Positions 42,695 through 50,402 of a stretch of DNA of 64,000 bases are shown one piece after another. Within the stretch, counting starts at the first letter, position 1. Each line of letters begins with the position of its first letter. A program made the position numbers and the translations under genes. Source of the DNA: Bradyrhizobium betae (GTDB lineage Bacteria > Pseudomonadota > Alphaproteobacteria > Rhizobiales > Xanthobacteraceae); the NCBI RefSeq assembly GCF_008932115.1, contig NZ_CP044543.1, positions 1 to 64,000 on the forward strand. Direction: 5' to 3'. A model generated the notes under the pieces. It saw only the letters and a list, made by a program, of their open reading frames with translations, had not been told where the DNA came from and made no database searches.

Positions 42695-43885
42695 TCAGCG
42701 CCGGCCGCCCCCCATCCCACCGCCGGGACCTCCGAAGCCACCACCACCCATGCCGCCGCCGGGCCCCATCGGTCCGCCGGGCGAGCCCATGCCGCCCGGG
42801 CCTGACGGGCCGCTCGGGCCCGTCGGTGCCGGGCCGGGGCTTGCACCCGGGCTGGATCCGGGCGCAGGCGCGCCCGGTGCACCGGGCTGACCACCGGTCG
42901 GGTTTGGCGCGGTACGATTCGGATGCAGGATGGAGCCGCCGGGCGACCGGTTGGGACTGCCACCGCCGGACGGAGGTGCTCCCGACCTCTGGCCGATGGC
43001 CTGTGCCGAATCCACCTGGAAGCCGCGCGAGCGGTCGAACACACCGTTGACCACCATACGCGCTTCGCCGGCCGCCGGTCCGAAGCGCGAGCCGTCACGG
43101 GCGACGAAGCCGGAGCCGAGCTGGAGGTTCGCCCCGGCCCGCTGCACGTAAGCCTCGATCGACAGGCGGCTTGCGCCGACCAGATCCGAGAAATCGTCGA
43201 TCCGCGTGCGCGCGGCCTGCATCGCGCCCTGGCTCGCGCTGCCCTCGACCTGGACGCGCTGGCCGACCAGCAAGGGATCGACGCCGTTCAGCCTCAGCCC
43301 GCCGATGCGCAGCCCGTCGGGCCCGCGCTCGACGAGCCCGGTGACACGCTCGGTTGCCTCGCGTCGCGGCTCGACCAGGCTTGCGACGATCACGCCGTCG
43401 CTGCGGCGCAGGCCGTAGACCGCCACCTGCGTGCCGGTACGGAGCTTGCTCTCCTTGTCGCTCGCGACGATCTTCTGGCCGAGCACGGTCAGCTCGTTGC
43501 CCTTCACGGATTCGACCGGACCTGCGACCTCGCTCGCAATCGCGATGTTGCGCGTGACGAGCGTGCCGTCGGCCCGGCGGGTCGCGACCACGCGTGCGAG
43601 CTGGCCGACCCGCAGAGCTTTGGGGCTCGCCGCTTCGCCATCGATCCGGACGGGGACATCACTGGCGTAGGTGATGCGCTCGCCGTTGACGTAGATGCTG
43701 CCGAAGCGCTGGATCACGCCGACGATGCCGGTGCCGCCGATGCCGTGGTCGTCACCGCGCGTGAGCCCGGTGCCGCCGATGCCCTGGTCGGTACCGCGCC
43801 CGACCTGCGCCCGCGTCATGGCCGTGCCGGCGAGCCAGAGGCCCGTCAGCAGCAGCCGGCGGGATATGAGCGGCGACCGGCTCAT
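42695..43885 (-). CDS. Tat-exported DUF5666 protein with Gly/Pro-rich tail
   Basis: A 396-residue protein. The N-terminus SRRLLLTGLWLAGTAMTRA looks like a twin-arginine signal. The middle (about 50-300) has repeated OB-like DUF5666 units (VNGERITYASDVPVRIDG, VKGNELTVLGQKIVAS, LRLNGVDPLLVGQRVQVEG). The last 90 residues are made of glycine, proline and serine (GGPMGPGGGMGGGGFGG) and must be disordered. Its start overlaps the DUF6502 stop (ATGA), so the two genes are one unit. Function unknown; related proteins are thought to be periplasmic. Confidence 0.8.
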   Translation of the reverse strand: MSRSPLISRRLLLTGLWLAGTAMTRAQVGRGTDQGIGGTGLTRGDDHGIGGTGIVGVIQRFGSIYVNGERITYASDVPVRIDGEAASPKALRVGQLARVVATRRADGTLVTRNIAIASEVAGPVESVKGNELTVLGQKIVASDKESKLRTGTQVAVYGLRRSDGVIVASLVEPRREATERVTGLVERGPDGLRIGGLRLNGVDPLLVGQRVQVEGSASQGAMQAARTRIDDFSDLVGASRLSIEAYVQRAGANLQLGSGFVARDGSRFGPAAGEARMVVNGVFDRSRGFQVDSAQAIGQRSGAPPSGGGSPNRSPGGSILHPNRTAPNPTGGQPGAPGAPAPGSSPGASPGPAPTGPSGPSGPGGMGSPGGPMGPGGGMGGGGFGGPGGGMGGGRR

Positions 43886-44760
43886 GAGGAACCACCTTCT
43901 TTGCCGCCCTCCCTGGACTCGCCCTCGTCGTCGGCATCTTCGCTGTAGATGTAGATACCGAAATTCCAGCGGGCCTCACCGCCCTTGTCCTTGGCGAGCG
44001 CGCGGTTGGCCTCGCGGTTGGCCGTCTTCAGCGCGTCCATCGCGAGCTCGCGCGAGCGCGCTTCGAGGCGGCGCGCGAGCTTCGGCGAGATGTTGTTGTA
44101 ATGCACCGCGCGCTCGAGGAAGCGCGGCGCTGCGCCCGAGACGTTACGTTCGGCCGCAGCGATATGGTCGTGCAGATTGCGGCCGAGATAGTGCCACTTG
44201 CCGTCGTCCTCGCCTGATGGGACGAAGGCGGCCTCGACCAGCTCGATCTCGTCGGACGCGTTGATGGTGACGAGCTTGCGGTCGACCCATTCGTCGAGCA
44301 CCGCGCGCGGGCGCACGTCCTTGGTGACGGAGGCGACGAGCTGCTCGAACGACGGCGCATCGCCCTCGGCCGTGCGCGGCAGGGCCAGCGGCTCGCCCTT
44401 CGCATCGGTGAACTCGGGCGCGGCGAGCCAGCGCGCGATCACGGCGCTCGTCAGCGACACCGCCGCCGGCGTCTCGTTCACGGGCGCGCCGGCGCCGCGC
44501 AGCCGCGCCACCTCCTTGCGATGGACGCCGGTGAGCAGGCTGACGCGGCTGTCGGTCTGCTCCTTGCCTTCCAGCGCGAAATCATGCTCGGCGACGTTGA
44601 CGAACAGCTCGCGAAGCAGTTGCGCCAGCGCCGGAAAGGTCATGCCGCTGCGGATGCAGAGCCGCACGAGCGGGCGCAGCAGCCGCGCCAGCGGCGCGTG
44701 CAGCTTCGCGGCGGCATCCGGCTGCGCAGCCGCTGCTTTGGACCCGGACTTGGCGTTCAT
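43882..44760 (-). CDS. DUF6502 family protein, possible DNA-binding regulator
   Basis: A 292-residue cytoplasmic protein from ATG 44760. It has an N-terminal helical region (LLRPLVRLCIRSGMTFPALAQLLRELFVNVAEHDF) and then DSRVSLLTGVHRKEVARLRG, which looks like a helix-turn-helix. The tail is acidic (SEDADDEGESREGG). It is transcribed with the DUF5666 gene and stands back to back with the polysaccharide operon. The gap holds clustered TGGGA/TCCCA elements, so it could control both directions; this is inference. Confidence 0.7.
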   Translation of the reverse strand: MNAKSGSKAAAAQPDAAAKLHAPLARLLRPLVRLCIRSGMTFPALAQLLRELFVNVAEHDFALEGKEQTDSRVSLLTGVHRKEVARLRGAGAPVNETPAAVSLTSAVIARWLAAPEFTDAKGEPLALPRTAEGDAPSFEQLVASVTKDVRPRAVLDEWVDRKLVTINASDEIELVEAAFVPSGEDDGKWHYLGRNLHDHIAAAERNVSGAAPRFLERAVHYNNISPKLARRLEARSRELAMDALKTANREANRALAKDKGGEARWNFGIYIYSEDADDEGESREGGKEGGSS

Positions 44761-44887: not shown

Positions 44888-45049
44888 ATGGCTGACCGCT
44901 TGGTCCGCAATTCCAGCTCGCTACGTGCCGTGCCGGCTCCCGACCGGGGGCACGGCACAATCGAGCCGATCCTGCCGGCGCTGCTGCGCGGCGTGATCTT
45001 CCTCTCGGTGCTGGCCGCACCGTTCGTCGCAGCACTTCTCGCAGGCTGA
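44888..45049 (+). CDS. 53-residue membrane protein at the head of the glycan operon
   Basis: ATG at 44888 gives MADRLVRNSSSLRAVPAPDR, a soluble part of about 30 residues. A single helix follows (GVIFLSVLAAPFVAALLAG) that ends at the stop. The ATG is preceded by GGGACACACACCC, a weak ribosome site. The stop lies seven bases before the fusion gene start, so the two are surely co-transcribed. Not recognised; perhaps an accessory subunit of the exporter. Confidence 0.5.
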   Translation: MADRLVRNSSSLRAVPAPDRGHGTIEPILPALLRGVIFLSVLAAPFVAALLAG

Positions 45050-45056
45050 CGCCGCC

Positions 45057-47009
45057 ATGCATCACAGCCAGGAAACCTTGCAGGAAGTCTTGCCCGAAAT
45101 CCCGCGCCGCCCGTCGGTGCTCCACATCTTCAAGATCTATTATCCCGACCTGTTCGGCGGCACGCTGACGGTGATCCGCGACATCTGCGCCAGCCTGAAG
45201 GACGCCTTTGCCTCAGCCGTGCTGGTCTGCTCACAATCGGCCGAGCCGCGCGCGCTCGTCGTCAACGACGTGCCGGTCGAGCGCGTCCGCTCGTTCGGCA
45301 ACCTGTTGTCGCTCCCCGCCGCCCCGACCTATCCGTGGCGGCTGTGGCGCAAAATCGCCGAGCACGATCTGCTCGCGCTCCACGCGCCCTTCCCGCTCGC
45401 CGATCTCGTTTTCGCGCTGGGATTCGGCGCCAAACGGCCGCTGGTGGTGCACTGGCACGCCGACATCGTCACCCATGCCGGCCTGCGCTGGTTCGTCGAA
45501 CCGTTGATGCGGCGAACCCTGCGCCGGGCCAGGGCGATCATCGTGTCGGACCACGTCCTGGTCGAGACCACGCCGCTGCTGCGCGAATTCGACGACAAAT
45601 GCCATGTCGTGCCGTTCGGCATCGACACCTCCGGTTACGACTGCCCGCAGATCGAGCCGAACCATGTCAACGACCGCGGCCGGCTCGTGCTCGCCTGCGG
45701 CCGGCTGGTGCCCTACAAGGGGTTCGACATGCTGATCCGCGCCGCCGTCAACCGCAAGTTCGAAGTCTGGATCATCGGAGAAGGCTCCGAACGAGCGCGG
45801 CTGGAGCAGTTGATCGGGGAGCTCGGTGTCGGCGATCGCGTCCGCCTGCTCGGTTCGGTCAGCGACGGCGAGCGCGTCAAGCTGATGTGCCTGTCCGACG
45901 TCTTCGTGATGTCGTCGGTGACCAACGCCGAGACCTTTGGTCTGGTCCAGCTCGAGGCCATGGCCGCCGGGCGCCCGGTCGTGAACACGGCACTCGATAC
46001 GGCCGTGCCGCGCGTCGCCCGCCACGGCATGGAAGCCATCACCGTGCCGCCCGGCAATCCGGACATGCTCGGGGACGCCATCGACACCCTCATCCACGAC
46101 CCCGAGCGCCGCCGGCGCATGGGATTGTCGGCCCGCACCCGCGCGCTCACCCGCTATTCCACCACGGCCTTCCGGGAAGGCATGGAAACCGTCTACCGCA
46201 ACGCCGTCACCGCGCCCTGCAGGGAATCGGCAGCCGCGGCCGAGCCGCCGCAGGCGACGGGCTGGCAGGACAGCGTCCGGATCGCGGCCGCCTTGGCCTG
46301 GTCCGACATGCGGCACCGTTACGTGCGCTCGCTGCTCGGACCGTTCTGGATGTCGCTGCAGATGGCGATCGTGGTCGTCGTGCTGGGCTCGGTGATCGGC
46401 CAGATCTCGAACGCCGACATCCTGTCGCGGCTCCCCATGCTGGCGCTGTCGATGACGGCCTGGACCTTCCTCAACAGCGTGGTGCTGGACGCGACCACGG
46501 CGCTGCAGAACTCCGCGAGCCTGATCCGCGACCGGGCATTGCCGCCGGTGATCTTCCTGCTGCAATGCACGTTCCGCCAGGGACTGTTCGCGCTGCATAA
46601 CGCCTGCGTGCCGCTGCTGCTGTGGCTCGTCCTGTCGCCCCACGACCTCTCTCACGCGCTGGCGGCGCTGCCCGGATTGCTGCTGTTCGTGGCCTGTACC
46701 TTCGCCCTGAGCCTCGTCCTTGGCGCGATGGCAACGCGCTATCGCGACCTCAAGCCGATCATCGAATCCACGCTGATGCTCGCCTTCCTCGCCTCGCCCG
46801 TGATCTGGTCAGCCGAAATGATCAACCACCGCGCGACGGTGATGCGGCTCAATCCCCTGACGCACCTGTTCGCGGTGTGGCGCGAGCCGCTTGCGGGCGG
46901 CCATGTCGACCCCACCAGCCTCGTCTACGTCCTCGTCACCCTGGCGCTGCTGATCTTTGCGAGCGTGCTGACGCTGGTTCACCTGCGCAAAGCCGCATTC
47001 TGGATCTGA
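45057..47009 (+). CDS. Fusion protein: GT4 glycosyltransferase + ABC-2 polysaccharide export permease
   Basis: A 650-residue protein joining two usually separate activities. Residues about 20-385 are a GT-B fold GT4 glycosyltransferase: KIYYPDLFGGTLTVI, HWHADIVTHAG, the hinge LVLACGRLVPYKGFDML, and the donor-site motif ETFGLVQLEAMAAGRPVV with both Glu residues. An Ala/Pro linker (386-402) leads into an ABC-2 permease of the Wzm/KpsM class: LAWSDMRHRYVRSLLGPFWMSL and six likely helices ending in VYVLVTLALLIFASVLTLVHLRKAAFWI. The ATPase partner follows two bases after the stop. The frame is continuous with no sign of error at the junction. A domain order of GT then permease is rarely seen. Confidence 0.85.
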   Translation: MHHSQETLQEVLPEIPRRPSVLHIFKIYYPDLFGGTLTVIRDICASLKDAFASAVLVCSQSAEPRALVVNDVPVERVRSFGNLLSLPAAPTYPWRLWRKIAEHDLLALHAPFPLADLVFALGFGAKRPLVVHWHADIVTHAGLRWFVEPLMRRTLRRARAIIVSDHVLVETTPLLREFDDKCHVVPFGIDTSGYDCPQIEPNHVNDRGRLVLACGRLVPYKGFDMLIRAAVNRKFEVWIIGEGSERARLEQLIGELGVGDRVRLLGSVSDGERVKLMCLSDVFVMSSVTNAETFGLVQLEAMAAGRPVVNTALDTAVPRVARHGMEAITVPPGNPDMLGDAIDTLIHDPERRRRMGLSARTRALTRYSTTAFREGMETVYRNAVTAPCRESAAAAEPPQATGWQDSVRIAAALAWSDMRHRYVRSLLGPFWMSLQMAIVVVVLGSVIGQISNADILSRLPMLALSMTAWTFLNSVVLDATTALQNSASLIRDRALPPVIFLLQCTFRQGLFALHNACVPLLLWLVLSPHDLSHALAALPGLLLFVACTFALSLVLGAMATRYRDLKPIIESTLMLAFLASPVIWSAEMINHRATVMRLNPLTHLFAVWREPLAGGHVDPTSLVYVLVTLALLIFASVLTLVHLRKAAFWI

Positions 47010-47011
47010 CC

Positions 47012-47752
47012 ATGGTCTCGATCAGCCTGCGCAACGTCTGTCTCGACTATCCGCTCTACGGCGCCTACGACTTCTCGCTGAAGCGGCGGCTGCTCGGCCA
47101 CCTGATCCGCGAGCCGGGCGAGATGCGGACCATCCGCGCCGTCGACAATGTCACGATCGAGGCCGAGCCCGGCGCCCGCATCGGGCTTGCCGGCCCCAAC
47201 GGCTCCGGCAAGTCGACGCTGCTGCGTCTCATCGCCGGCGTGTACCCGCCGAGCAGCGGCCGTCTCGCCGTCAGGGGCAACATCGTGCCCCTGCTCGGCC
47301 TGAACGCCGGCGTTAACCTGGACTTCGTGGCGGAGGACAACATCGCGCTGCTGCTGCGGATCAGCGGCCGCAAGCCGACCCGCAGCGTGATCGACGAGAT
47401 CTGGGCGTTCACCGAGCTCGAGACGCGGATGCAGCGGCTGCCCTTGCGGATGTTCTCCTCGGGAATGCTCATGCGGGTGCTGTTCGCCACCGCCACCGCC
47501 TTCCCGGCCGACATCCTCCTGCTCGACGAATGGCTCAGCGTCGTCGACGAGCATTTTGCCGAGAAGGCCGAGCGGCGGCTGCAACACCTCGTCGCGCAGG
47601 CGGCGATCGTGATCATCGCCTCGCACGACCAGCCGCTGCTGCGCCGCATCTGCTCCAGCATCATCAACCTCGATCACGGCCGCATCGCCTCGACCGTGAC
47701 GGTCGAGCCGCCTGCCACGCACGCCTTCGAGCTCCGCGAGAAACGCGCATGA
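47012..47752 (+). CDS. ABC transporter ATPase for polysaccharide export (Wzt/KpsT-like)
   Basis: A 246-residue ATPase that should power the permease half of the fusion. It has an N-terminal SLRNVCLDYPLYGAYDFSLKRRLL, the style of rhizobial O-antigen exporters. Walker A is GPNGSGKSTLLR, the signature is FSSGMLMR (the variant usual in glycan exporters), and Walker B is ADILLLDEWLSVVD. The carbohydrate-binding C-terminal domain of Wzt is absent, as in KpsT, so export probably does not depend on a terminal sugar cap. The start overlaps nothing; the stop overlaps the next start. Confidence 0.9.
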   Translation: MVSISLRNVCLDYPLYGAYDFSLKRRLLGHLIREPGEMRTIRAVDNVTIEAEPGARIGLAGPNGSGKSTLLRLIAGVYPPSSGRLAVRGNIVPLLGLNAGVNLDFVAEDNIALLLRISGRKPTRSVIDEIWAFTELETRMQRLPLRMFSSGMLMRVLFATATAFPADILLLDEWLSVVDEHFAEKAERRLQHLVAQAAIVIIASHDQPLLRRICSSIINLDHGRIASTVTVEPPATHAFELREKRA

Positions 47753-49137
47753 AACAGACCATCCTCGTCGTCTCCGAGGCGCTGGGCGAGCCCAACCACA
47801 AGCGCGGCATCTTCCACTTCACGCGCGAGCTGATGCGCTCGCTCGCGGCCGAGGGCCATGAGCTGACGCTGCTGGTCGAGACCTCGCGGCGCTATCGCAA
47901 GCTGCGCCGGCGCGAGCTGCGGACAAAGCTGTTTCCGTCGGAGGCGCGCAACATCGAGCTGCTCGCACTCTATCGTTTCCTTGACGAGATCAACATGGCC
48001 GAGCCGCTGGCGCGCAACGGCCTGCGGTGCACGCTCGACTGGTTGCGCCACAAGGCGGCCATGTCGGTATCGCCGGACTACGTCCTCTGCTTCCTGCGCG
48101 CCATCGGACTGCGCGGATTGAATGCCCGGCGGATCGAGAACAAGACCGGCGCGATCGAATACGTCCCGCCCGACCTGCGCCACCTCGAGCTGTTCCGCGA
48201 GTTCCAGCTCGAGCCCGGCTTCTACAGCTATCAGGATTCCTCCGCCTTCTTCCTGCTGCCGCCGCCGCGGGTCGACGCGCGCGACTACGACGTCATCGTG
48301 GTGGACACGCCGACGCGGGTCGCGATCCGGCGCAAACCGGGCGCCAAGGTGATCTGCGTGGTCCACGATCTGCTGCCGCTCACCGACCTCAAGCTCAGCG
48401 ACGTCGCGACACGGCTGTTCCTGTCGCGCTTGTTCACCAGCCTGCGGCAGGCCGACGAGCTCGCCTTCGTCTCAAACTACAGCATGATGCGGTTCAGGGA
48501 CCTGTTGCCGCAATTTGCCCACCTGCCGGCGCGGGTCGTGTATCCCCGCACCCGGTTCGACGCCCCGGATGTCCTGCACCTGCCAGCCCCGTCGGGGCGT
48601 CCGGGGCGGCCGAGCTTTGTCGTCATCGTCTCGAACGAACCGCGCAAGAACGTCGCCACCGTCATCCGCGCCTTCCGCGGCGTGCCGCAGGCCGACCTCG
48701 TCGTGATCGGCTATGCCGGCGAGATCAACCGGATGCGCAATCTGCCGCCGAACGTCCGCTTTGCCGGCTATGTCGACGAGCATGAGAAGGCCGCCCTCAT
48801 TGCCGAAGCCCACGGGCTGATCATGCCGAGCTTCGCCGAAGGCTTTGGCGTGCCGATCATCGAGGCGCTGGCCGCGAATACGCCGGTGCTGTGCTCTGAT
48901 ATCGCGGTGTTCCGCGAGGTCGCGGGCGAACTTGCGGACTATTTCGACCCGTTCTCGACCGACTCGATCGCGGCCTCCGTCACCCGCGTGCTGGCGCGGC
49001 AGGAGGAGTGCCGCGGCAGGATCAAGGCGCGGCGCAGCGAGCTCGCCGCGCGCTTCGGCTACGAGAGCCAGGCCCGCGATTTCCTCGGACATGAGGTGCA
49101 CAGCGACAGCCTCGCCGCCGCACAGCTGGCATCGTAG
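47749..49137 (+). CDS. GT4 family glycosyltransferase
   Basis: A 462-residue glycosyltransferase. The N-terminal half is long and less typical (FHFTRELMRSLAAEGHELTLLVETSRRYRK, then VVHDLLPLTDLKLS). The C-terminal GT1_4 domain has SNEPRKNVATVIRAFRG, RFAGYVDEHEKAALIAEAHGLIMPSFAEGFGVPIIEALAANTPVLCSD, with the paired Glu of the donor site. The donor and acceptor are unknown. It is coupled to the ATPase by an ATGA overlap and should add sugars to the same exported chain. Confidence 0.88.
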   Translation: MKQTILVVSEALGEPNHKRGIFHFTRELMRSLAAEGHELTLLVETSRRYRKLRRRELRTKLFPSEARNIELLALYRFLDEINMAEPLARNGLRCTLDWLRHKAAMSVSPDYVLCFLRAIGLRGLNARRIENKTGAIEYVPPDLRHLELFREFQLEPGFYSYQDSSAFFLLPPPRVDARDYDVIVVDTPTRVAIRRKPGAKVICVVHDLLPLTDLKLSDVATRLFLSRLFTSLRQADELAFVSNYSMMRFRDLLPQFAHLPARVVYPRTRFDAPDVLHLPAPSGRPGRPSFVVIVSNEPRKNVATVIRAFRGVPQADLVVIGYAGEINRMRNLPPNVRFAGYVDEHEKAALIAEAHGLIMPSFAEGFGVPIIEALAANTPVLCSDIAVFREVAGELADYFDPFSTDSIAASVTRVLARQEECRGRIKARRSELAARFGYESQARDFLGHEVHSDSLAAAQLAS

Positions 49138-49139
49138 GG

Positions 49140-50402
49140 ATGAACGCCGAATACGGACATGGCCGCCGGCCCGCCCTCGGCAATTCGGCCGCGCTGAAGG
49201 GGACCACCGATGGGCTCGCCGTCCTGATCGCGGCCTCGCTGCCCTGGTCGACCACGGCGCCGTCGATCCTCGTCGGCCTCTGGCTGCTGGCGGTGACGCC
49301 GACGATCGATTGGCGCGCCTACGGGCGGCAGCTCGCCCGGCCCGCGTTCGCGCTGCCCTTTGCCTTCCTGCTGCTCGCCCTCGTCGGGACGCTCTGGTCC
49401 GACGGTGCGTGGGCGGACCGGCTGTATGCGATCAAGCCGGTCGCCAAGCTCGTGCTGATCCCGGCGCTGCTCTACCATTTCAGCCGGTCGGAGCGCGGCC
49501 TATGGGTCTGCCTCGCCTTTCTCGGCTCCTGCGCGCTGCTTGCGGTCTATTCCTGGATCGTGTTGCTCGATCCCGCCTGGAAGATCACCACGACGGCGTC
49601 GGCGGGCGTTCCCGTCAAGAACTACATCGACCAGAGCCAGGAATTCACCCTCTGCGCCTTTGCGCTTGCGCTGCCCGCGCTGAATTTCTGGCGCGACAGA
49701 CGCATGGTCGCCACGGCCGCGTGCCTGGCGCTGATCCTGCTGTTCGTCACCAACATGGTGTTCGTCGCATCCGCCCGCACGGCGCTGCTCTGCATCGCCG
49801 TGCTGCTCGCCCTGTTTGCCTGGAAGCACCTCAGTCAGCGGGCGGCACTGCTCCTGCTCGCGGGCGCTGTCGCCGCGAGCGCGCTGGCCTGGACGACGTC
49901 GCCCTATCTGCGCCAGCGCATCACCGACATCGCGGTCGAATATCACCGTGGCCATGAGGACCTCAGCCGCGCCTCGACCGCGCAGCGGCTGACCTATTGG
50001 CGCAAGGCGCTCCACGCCTTCACCGAGGCGCCCTTGATCGGCCATGGCACCGGCTCGATCAAGCGGCAGTTCGAGCGCGCCGCTACCAGCGGCAGCAGCC
50101 TCGATGCGGAGATCGTCAGCAATCCGCACAACCAGACCCTCAACGTCGCCATGCAATGGGGCCTGCTCGGAGTAGTCCTTCTCTATGCGATGTGGATTGC
50201 CCACCTTCGCCTGTTCATGGAAGGAGATGCCCTGGGCCAAGGTCTTGCCGCCTGGATCGGCCTCGTCGCCGTCGTTCAGAACATCGCGAGCTCGCTGCTG
50301 AACTCGCATCTGTTCGATTTCCACGAGGGGTGGATGTATGTGCTCTGCGTCGGCGTCGCCGGCGGCATGGTGCTGAAGACCAGGGCCGGCGCTGAATCCT
50401 GA
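49140..50402 (+). CDS. O-antigen ligase-like membrane protein (WaaL/Wzy_C family)
   Basis: A 420-residue protein with about 11 helices. The large periplasmic loop carries AEIVSNPHNQTLNVAMQWGLLG, where the conserved HN of O-antigen ligases sits. Such proteins attach O-chains to lipid A-core, or polymerise glycans. With the ABC exporter upstream, the ligase role is more likely. It starts three bases after the glycosyltransferase stop and is the last gene of the operon. It ends base-to-base with the stop of the convergent ABC binding protein. Confidence 0.87.
   Translation: MNAEYGHGRRPALGNSAALKGTTDGLAVLIAASLPWSTTAPSILVGLWLLAVTPTIDWRAYGRQLARPAFALPFAFLLLALVGTLWSDGAWADRLYAIKPVAKLVLIPALLYHFSRSERGLWVCLAFLGSCALLAVYSWIVLLDPAWKITTTASAGVPVKNYIDQSQEFTLCAFALALPALNFWRDRRMVATAACLALILLFVTNMVFVASARTALLCIAVLLALFAWKHLSQRAALLLLAGAVAASALAWTTSPYLRQRITDIAVEYHRGHEDLSRASTAQRLTYWRKALHAFTEAPLIGHGTGSIKRQFERAATSGSSLDAEIVSNPHNQTLNVAMQWGLLGVVLLYAMWIAHLRLFMEGDALGQGLAAWIGLVAVVQNIASSLLNSHLFDFHEGWMYVLCVGVAGGMVLKTRAGAES

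Follow-up and report, generated by a model that had tools for sequence, protein, structure and literature searches.

Exporters of the Wzm type are dimers that work with two ATPases and have a cytosolic N-terminus. In the O8/O9a and O12-type Wzm-Wzt systems, as described in PMC11231755, a lipid-linked glycan is exported in an ABC-dependent manner, and a carbohydrate-binding module (CBM) on the ATPase reads its terminal cap. For Klebsiella O2a (O1/O2), the same account (PMC11231755) reports coupling without a CBM and a chain length that depends on the proportion of enzyme complexes to transporters; as far as described there, enzymes and transporter are separate proteins. Surface-polysaccharide biology has yet to settle how ABC exporters that lack a CBM know when to take the chain. 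The Wzm-Wzt pair of mycobacteria (9qfx, 9qhw) likewise has a short ATPase with no extra C-terminal domain. A further group consists of split clusters from other genera of the family, in which a GT4 glycosyltransferase (GT), often followed directly by a permease and an ATPase, is encoded by its own gene (L100-L103, L127 and L132 in our locus set).

Within the window, that is, the whole 64,000-nucleotide stretch of Bradyrhizobium betae DNA analysed here, we found an operon in which a GT4 and a Wzm-type permease form one polypeptide. The host genus comprises nitrogen-fixing plant symbionts. Both the permease part and the adjacent ATPase have their best PDB match in the mycobacterial pair, and the ATPase is alike in being short; the 307-residue mycobacterial permease chain (9qfx), unlike the fused protein, carries no GT domain. 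As in Klebsiella O2a, the exporter has no CBM, but here a single polypeptide comprises one GT and the permease; a CBM of the O8/O9a and O12 kind is absent from the ATPase, which sets the locus apart from the CBM-dependent subgroup, although we presume by analogy that a lipid-linked glycan is exported here too. GTs of the split clusters are 36-44% identical to the fused one and fall into a neighbouring clade; those clusters differ in having two genes, a permease of another clade and a GDP-mannose dehydratase gene (gmd) in the cluster, whereas the present operon stands isolated. We thus describe a glycan exporter of the ABC-dependent kind whose domain arrangement is new, not a new system. With moderate confidence, we regard the fused protein as a two-job subunit of an ABC-transporter-dependent surface-glycan pathway, in which proximity would couple export to synthesis.

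A GT4 and a Wzm-type permease in one frame

The fused gene encodes an intact GT4 joined through a short linker to a complete Wzm-type permease (Table 1). Three Pfam matches, all above the curated cut-offs, cover the protein: Glyco_trans_4_4 at residues 34-188, Glycos_transf_1 at 202-361 (E 1.9e-33) and ABC2_membrane (PF01061) at 412-607 (E 1.5e-11; 44.7 bits, cut-off 26.9). GT4 membership is indicated by a GT-B fold with both the N- and the C-terminal GT4 Pfam domains (Pfam and Foldseek), and E292 and E300 are invariant across an alignment of 55 proteins. The preliminary description had read the gene as a GT4 with its Glu pair intact running straight into a Wzm-type permease; the two glutamates, the Pfam matches and the single 650-residue frame bear this out.

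Table 1. Coordinates of the fused gene, its parts and its neighbours in the window; the last column gives presence among the 52 loci of the neighbour census.
Feature	Coordinates	Strand	Description	Loci
DUF5666 gene, divergent neighbour	42695..43885	-	PF18914, E 4.5e-13	52/52
DUF6502 gene, divergent neighbour	43882..44760	-	PF20112, E 3.1e-30	52/52
53-aa ORF	44888..45049	+	C-terminal half hydrophobic; no Pfam match	45/52
Fused GT-permease gene	45057..47009	+	650 aa; ATG start, no internal stop	
GT4 domain	45105..46211	+	residues ~17-385; Pfam, model, motif, Foldseek	
E292 and E300 codons	45930-45956	+	E-x7-E motif of the GT4 domain	
Linker	46212..46262	+	residues 386-402; predicted disordered; sequence and length vary	
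Wzm-type ABC-2 permease domain	46263..47006	+	residues 403-650; starts with helix 403-424; PF01061	
Wzt-type ATPase	47012..47752	+	246 aa; ABC_tran at 45-175 only	52/52
Second GT4	47749..49137	+	462 aa; start overlaps ATPase stop; Pfam	52/52
Wzy_C-family membrane protein	49140..50402	+	420 aa; PF04932, E 1.7e-19	48/52

An AlphaFold2 model of the fused protein, built from 55 sequences, had a mean pLDDT of 78.2 and a pTM of 0.55. Residues 389-401 (pLDDT below 50) lie between two folded parts, and at this pTM the GT and permease domains are not fixed relative to each other. When the halves were compared with known structures by Foldseek, the GT half matched HepE, MshA, BshA, PimB' and PimA, and the permease half matched Wzm of Mycobacterium abscessus (9qfx) at rank 29, with a target-normalised TM-score of 0.81 and an rmsd of 2.5 over 252 columns at 28% identity. 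In the sequence comparison with the PDB, chain 9qfx_A ranked first for the permease half (E 9.9e-34). As to the donor, gmd near one split relative and the PimA/PimB'-like fold are no more than hints at a GDP-sugar, and the matches to HepE, MshA and BshA may point to a UDP-sugar. From its sequence, the GT domain would be expected to catalyse retaining transfer.

To judge whether one protein is made, we looked at start codons, frame and selection. A motif scan of 91 sources yielded 66 distinct fused ORFs (11 sources were missed by the motif and 14 were duplicates). Between about residues 377 and 417, 21 of these 66 contain no ATG, GTG or TTG, and 27 contain no ATG or GTG. In B. betae the sole start-type codon between ATG376 and ATG418 is TTG413, which lies inside the gate helix; ATG376 itself sits in the last helix of the GT, outside this stretch, and its Met is unconserved in an alignment of 17. 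Separate translation of the permease from an internal start is made unlikely by the 21 start-free ORFs. The distance from E-x7-E to AWSD ranges over 108-117 residues among the 66 ORFs and changes in whole codons. Median dN/dS against 55 relatives came to 0.184 (GT), 0.144 (permease) and 0.115 (gate helix); that of the linker, for which 48 of the 55 were usable, was 0.614. These values indicate selection on both domains as functional units and on the linker chiefly for spacing.

The operon and its neighbours

The genes behind the fused one are tightly packed: the ATPase begins two bases past the stop of the fused gene, and the Wzy_C gene two bases past that of the second GT. A gap of 7 bases separates the end of the 53-residue ORF, which could encode a small membrane subunit, from the start of the fused gene. 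Walker A, SSGM, LLLDEW and SHD, which we take to be the motifs expected of such an ATPase, are all found in the ATPase, and its best PDB match is the Wzt chain 9qhw_C (E 3.8e-43). The protein has no room for the C-terminal carbohydrate-binding domain of Wzt; a search of the whole B. betae genome with PF14524 (Wzt_C) gave no match, and a control search was positive in 2 of 14 genomes.

A Wzm-type transmembrane domain next to a Wzt-type ATPase places the pair among ABC polysaccharide exporters. Of the named polymer exporters, the teichoic-acid exporter TarG/TarH (6jbh) comes next after the mycobacterial pair. Scores against the NCBIfam models of the galactan exporter (NF050109, 145.3 bits with a cut-off of 380; NF050108, 172.1 bits with a cut-off of 400) are so far below the cut-offs that the operon does not encode an orthologue of the mycobacterial galactan exporter. 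The fused permease is the only one in the operon; the genome holds one further related permease, 29% identical over residues 412-630.

The preliminary description had further named an ATPase without the Wzt binding domain directly behind the fused gene, then a second glycosyltransferase and a ligase. The first two agree with the domain content of the genes (a 246-residue ATPase with ABC_tran only, and a second GT4 recognised by Pfam). For the third, the match to the Wzy_C family stood and the label did not: the gene is missing from 4 of 52 loci, and the B. betae genome has 7 Wzy_C genes. PF04932 is its sole family match, with none in NCBIfam, and its best PDB match, 9rmk (E 2e-6), is named 'Oligosaccharyltransferase'. 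The product may be a ligase, a polymerase or an oligosaccharyltransferase, a ligase role being one that the family match would allow.

Neighbours were counted in 52 of 56 named loci, those with at least 4 kb downstream (Table 1). The Wzy_C gene is missing from the Methylocapsa locus. From the genes that accompany the fusion across loci, the core consists of the fused GT-permease, the ATPase and the second GT. The genes around the operon are ordinary chromosomal ones and form no sugar-nucleotide cluster; we noted no sugar-nucleotide synthesis genes in or next to it, and only two GTs within.

The divergent genes on the other side accompany the fusion just as regularly. All 40 fusion carriers up to genome G116 fall within the 47 of 117 genomes that have DUF6502, if the 117-genome set is taken to be G000-G116. 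Across the order, DUF6502 was found at 16 places in 15 of 199 genomes, and DUF5666 adjoins it at 13 of the 16; a GT lies near it only at B. betae's own place, within loci spanning about 1.5 kb per side. DUF6502-DUF5666 (42695-44760) is a conserved gene pair in the order. The idea that these two are dedicated partners of the operon is weakened, as the pair usually occurs without it, and for this reason we do not count them as part of the machine.

Distribution, descent and loss of the fusion

We searched genus, family, order and class samples, which overlap. Within the genus, 74 of 195 genomes matched at 1e-60, and in 68 an uninterrupted fused frame covered both domains (67 reached residue 650 and one ended at a contig end); the other six were GT only, two at the same place and four distant. 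The family sample gave matches at 1e-55 in 41 of 296 genomes, of which 10 were fused, 28 were GT only and 3 spanned both domains with one stop between. Matches were few beyond that: 6 of 397 genomes in the order, 3 of them fused, and 4 of 385 in the class, fused only in B. betae itself. Among named genomes the fusion was present in 56 of 57 loci, nearly all Bradyrhizobium by title, and Methylocapsa sp. S129 carries it at 57%. The junction, singled out in the preliminary description as a place where a stop or frameshift might lie, is thus open in relatives as well, and homologues in the lineage are fused, not always split. Since 127 of the 195 genus genomes are without the fusion, the operon is dispensable.

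The preliminary description had also called this the strongest candidate for an undescribed system. A search of the open-access literature found no publication on a Wzm permease with a GT fused to it, and to that extent the claim holds. It is too strong for the system, which is a known kind of exporter, and automatic annotation already labels such proteins permease/glycosyltransferase. In two protein searches, both kinds of Pfam domain are present in the best 120 of 768 and the best 120 of 673 proteins. No plasmid record had both halves; three, all haloarchaeal, matched in the GT part alone. In a phylum survey with the permease as query, 30 of 349 genomes matched, with 34 places besides the fused gene. 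No same-frame GT was found at the 29 of these 34 that were read, where the long frames of L141, L148 and L161 proved to be stop-free upstream stretches without GT similarity; at the remaining five, open frames measured 280-490 aa. A search for long proteins of about 400-1280 aa that contain a permease of a more distant type found none at 1e-12 among 3600 candidates.

The GT tree (43 rows) unites the 16 fused rows with the 2 that are GT only in a single clade (99/98). These 2 sit nested among the fused rows, on branches of 0.44 and 0.59 compared with at most 0.27 for fused end branches. Both genes lie at the same chromosomal place with an open GT frame (L121, 7597-8802, minus strand; L122, 7852-9069, plus strand). 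Given this nesting, permease, ATPase, second GT and Wzy_C have most likely been lost in these two genomes, and the GT-only arrangement is not the ancestral state. That a GT is kept without the other four genes means that it may act apart from export; the long branches mean that it may also be decaying. We examined six more genomes with DUF6502, alone or paired with DUF5666, but without the fusion for remnants at the place of the operon. Two retained weak scraps of GT and Wzy_C (18-32 bits), one a Wzy_C gene and another a piece of Wzy_C, and the last two had nothing; the remnants (at L174, L175, L177 and L179) suggest repeated loss of the operon.

The permease tree (54 rows, leaving out the permeases of L109, L115, L116, L118 and L119, whose matches were too weak) likewise united the 16 fused rows in one clade (100/99). 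Their neighbour is a stand-alone permease from another family, at L120 (joint fork 100/100), and the 11 permeases that adjoin split GTs form a separate clade (100/100). As the fused permease groups with L120, the partnership of GT and permease is not ancient and exclusive. The L120 cluster, its translated ORFs read by eye, resembles an rml-type O-polysaccharide cluster.

At the split-type GT loci L100-L119, GT and permease are separate ORFs in 14 of 20 and fused in none. Such relatives with separate genes mean that the fusion is not needed for a pathway of this kind. At several of these loci (L100, L101, L102, L109 and L116 among them) the two ORFs are adjacent and in the same frame with a stop between, an arrangement from which joining in one step is easy to imagine. 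A simple origin, in which an ancestral pair of GT and permease genes lost the stop codon between them, is nevertheless unsupported as such, the fused permease being nearest to L120. On these trees the fusion is a derived state, and the split clusters seen today are not its direct two-gene ancestor. At L127 the GT stands behind a GDP-mannose 4,6-dehydratase (TIGR01472, above cut-off) and a second member of the same Pfam family.

Proposed coupling of synthesis and export

In the mechanism that we propose, the permease half and the adjacent ATPase would assemble into a Wzm2-Wzt2 exporter. The N-terminal GT4 would be active on the cytosolic side, about 15 flexible residues from the first (gate) helix of the permease, so that two GT copies would be held within a few nanometres at the cytosolic mouth of each exporter, at a fixed GT to permease ratio of 1:1. 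Tethered GT and second GT4 would add sugars to a lipid-linked glycan, which the same complex would take up and export, and on the outside the Wzy_C protein of the operon, or another from the genome, would attach the product or process it further. The fusion, the operon and precedent suggest that the GT acts on the exported glycan, and at split loci with GDP-mannose dehydratase the same type of GT adjoins permease and ATPase, in support of this. As the ATPase has no carbohydrate-binding domain, coupling would rely on proximity and fixed stoichiometry, with no terminal cap being read. The domain orientation is unpredicted and the linker fast-evolving, which gives no indication of specific docking. 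Enzymatic activity, step order, lipid carrier, donor, product and the coupling itself are inferences in this scheme. Such an arrangement would hard-wire the coupling reported for Klebsiella O2a. A natural protein with a fixed ratio makes the question of enzyme to transporter ratio directly testable, and the fused protein offers a stable enzyme-exporter complex for structural work.

It is possible, if somewhat unlikely, that the tethered GT acts once per chain, as a first, adaptor or capping enzyme, with elongation left to the second GT or, outside, to a Wzy-type polymerase. The presence of only two GTs in the operon fits this, as does the potentially polymerising Wzy_C gene, usually there (48 of 52 loci); PimA and PimB', both among the structural matches, act once on a lipid acceptor. 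On the other hand, Wzy_C is missing at the remaining four loci, and no sequence feature here separates a one-step from a processive enzyme: the sequence is compatible with starting, extending and capping alike.

We think it rather unlikely that the fusion is a mere convenience, a chance joining kept because it ensures co-expression and co-localisation, and coupling synthesis to export no more tightly than two-gene systems do. The disordered, weakly constrained linker is in keeping with this, and adjacent same-frame GT and permease genes, as at the split loci named above, would supply the material. However, the fusion is kept across Bradyrhizobium, G286 and the Methylocapsa group, with no working re-split in the trees sampled, and two genomes lost the permease entirely rather than re-splitting.

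Proximity coupling, the reading we prefer, also has a stronger version, in which synthase and exporter are a single machine: the tethered GT4 would elongate the chain while its own channel, driven by the adjacent ATPase, translocates it, in a single processive event. We regard this as doubtful. If true, ABC transporters would have their own equivalent of the membrane-embedded synthases, cellulose synthase being an example.

More improbable still is a flippase for a small glycolipid or oligosaccharide, in which the two GTs would build a short lipid-borne glycan and the fused transporter would flip it. An operon with no sugar-nucleotide synthesis genes and only two GTs is compatible with this, but permease and ATPase match Wzm-Wzt and then TarG/TarH (6jbh), exporters that move long chains. 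Finally, the chance that an assembly or frameshift artefact joined two neighbouring genes is practically nil: conservation (the identical fusion in 68 of 195 genus genomes and in other assemblies), linker length changes that stay in frame and purifying selection on both halves refute it.

Two records deserve a separate remark. Genome G286 holds both forms, a fused gene (L123) and a split set of GT, permease and ATPase (L132), and so lends itself to a comparison inside one genome. A record titled 'Frankia sp. RB7' (L050) contains an 87% identical fused gene of the Bradyrhizobium type and is probably mislabelled or a mixed assembly.
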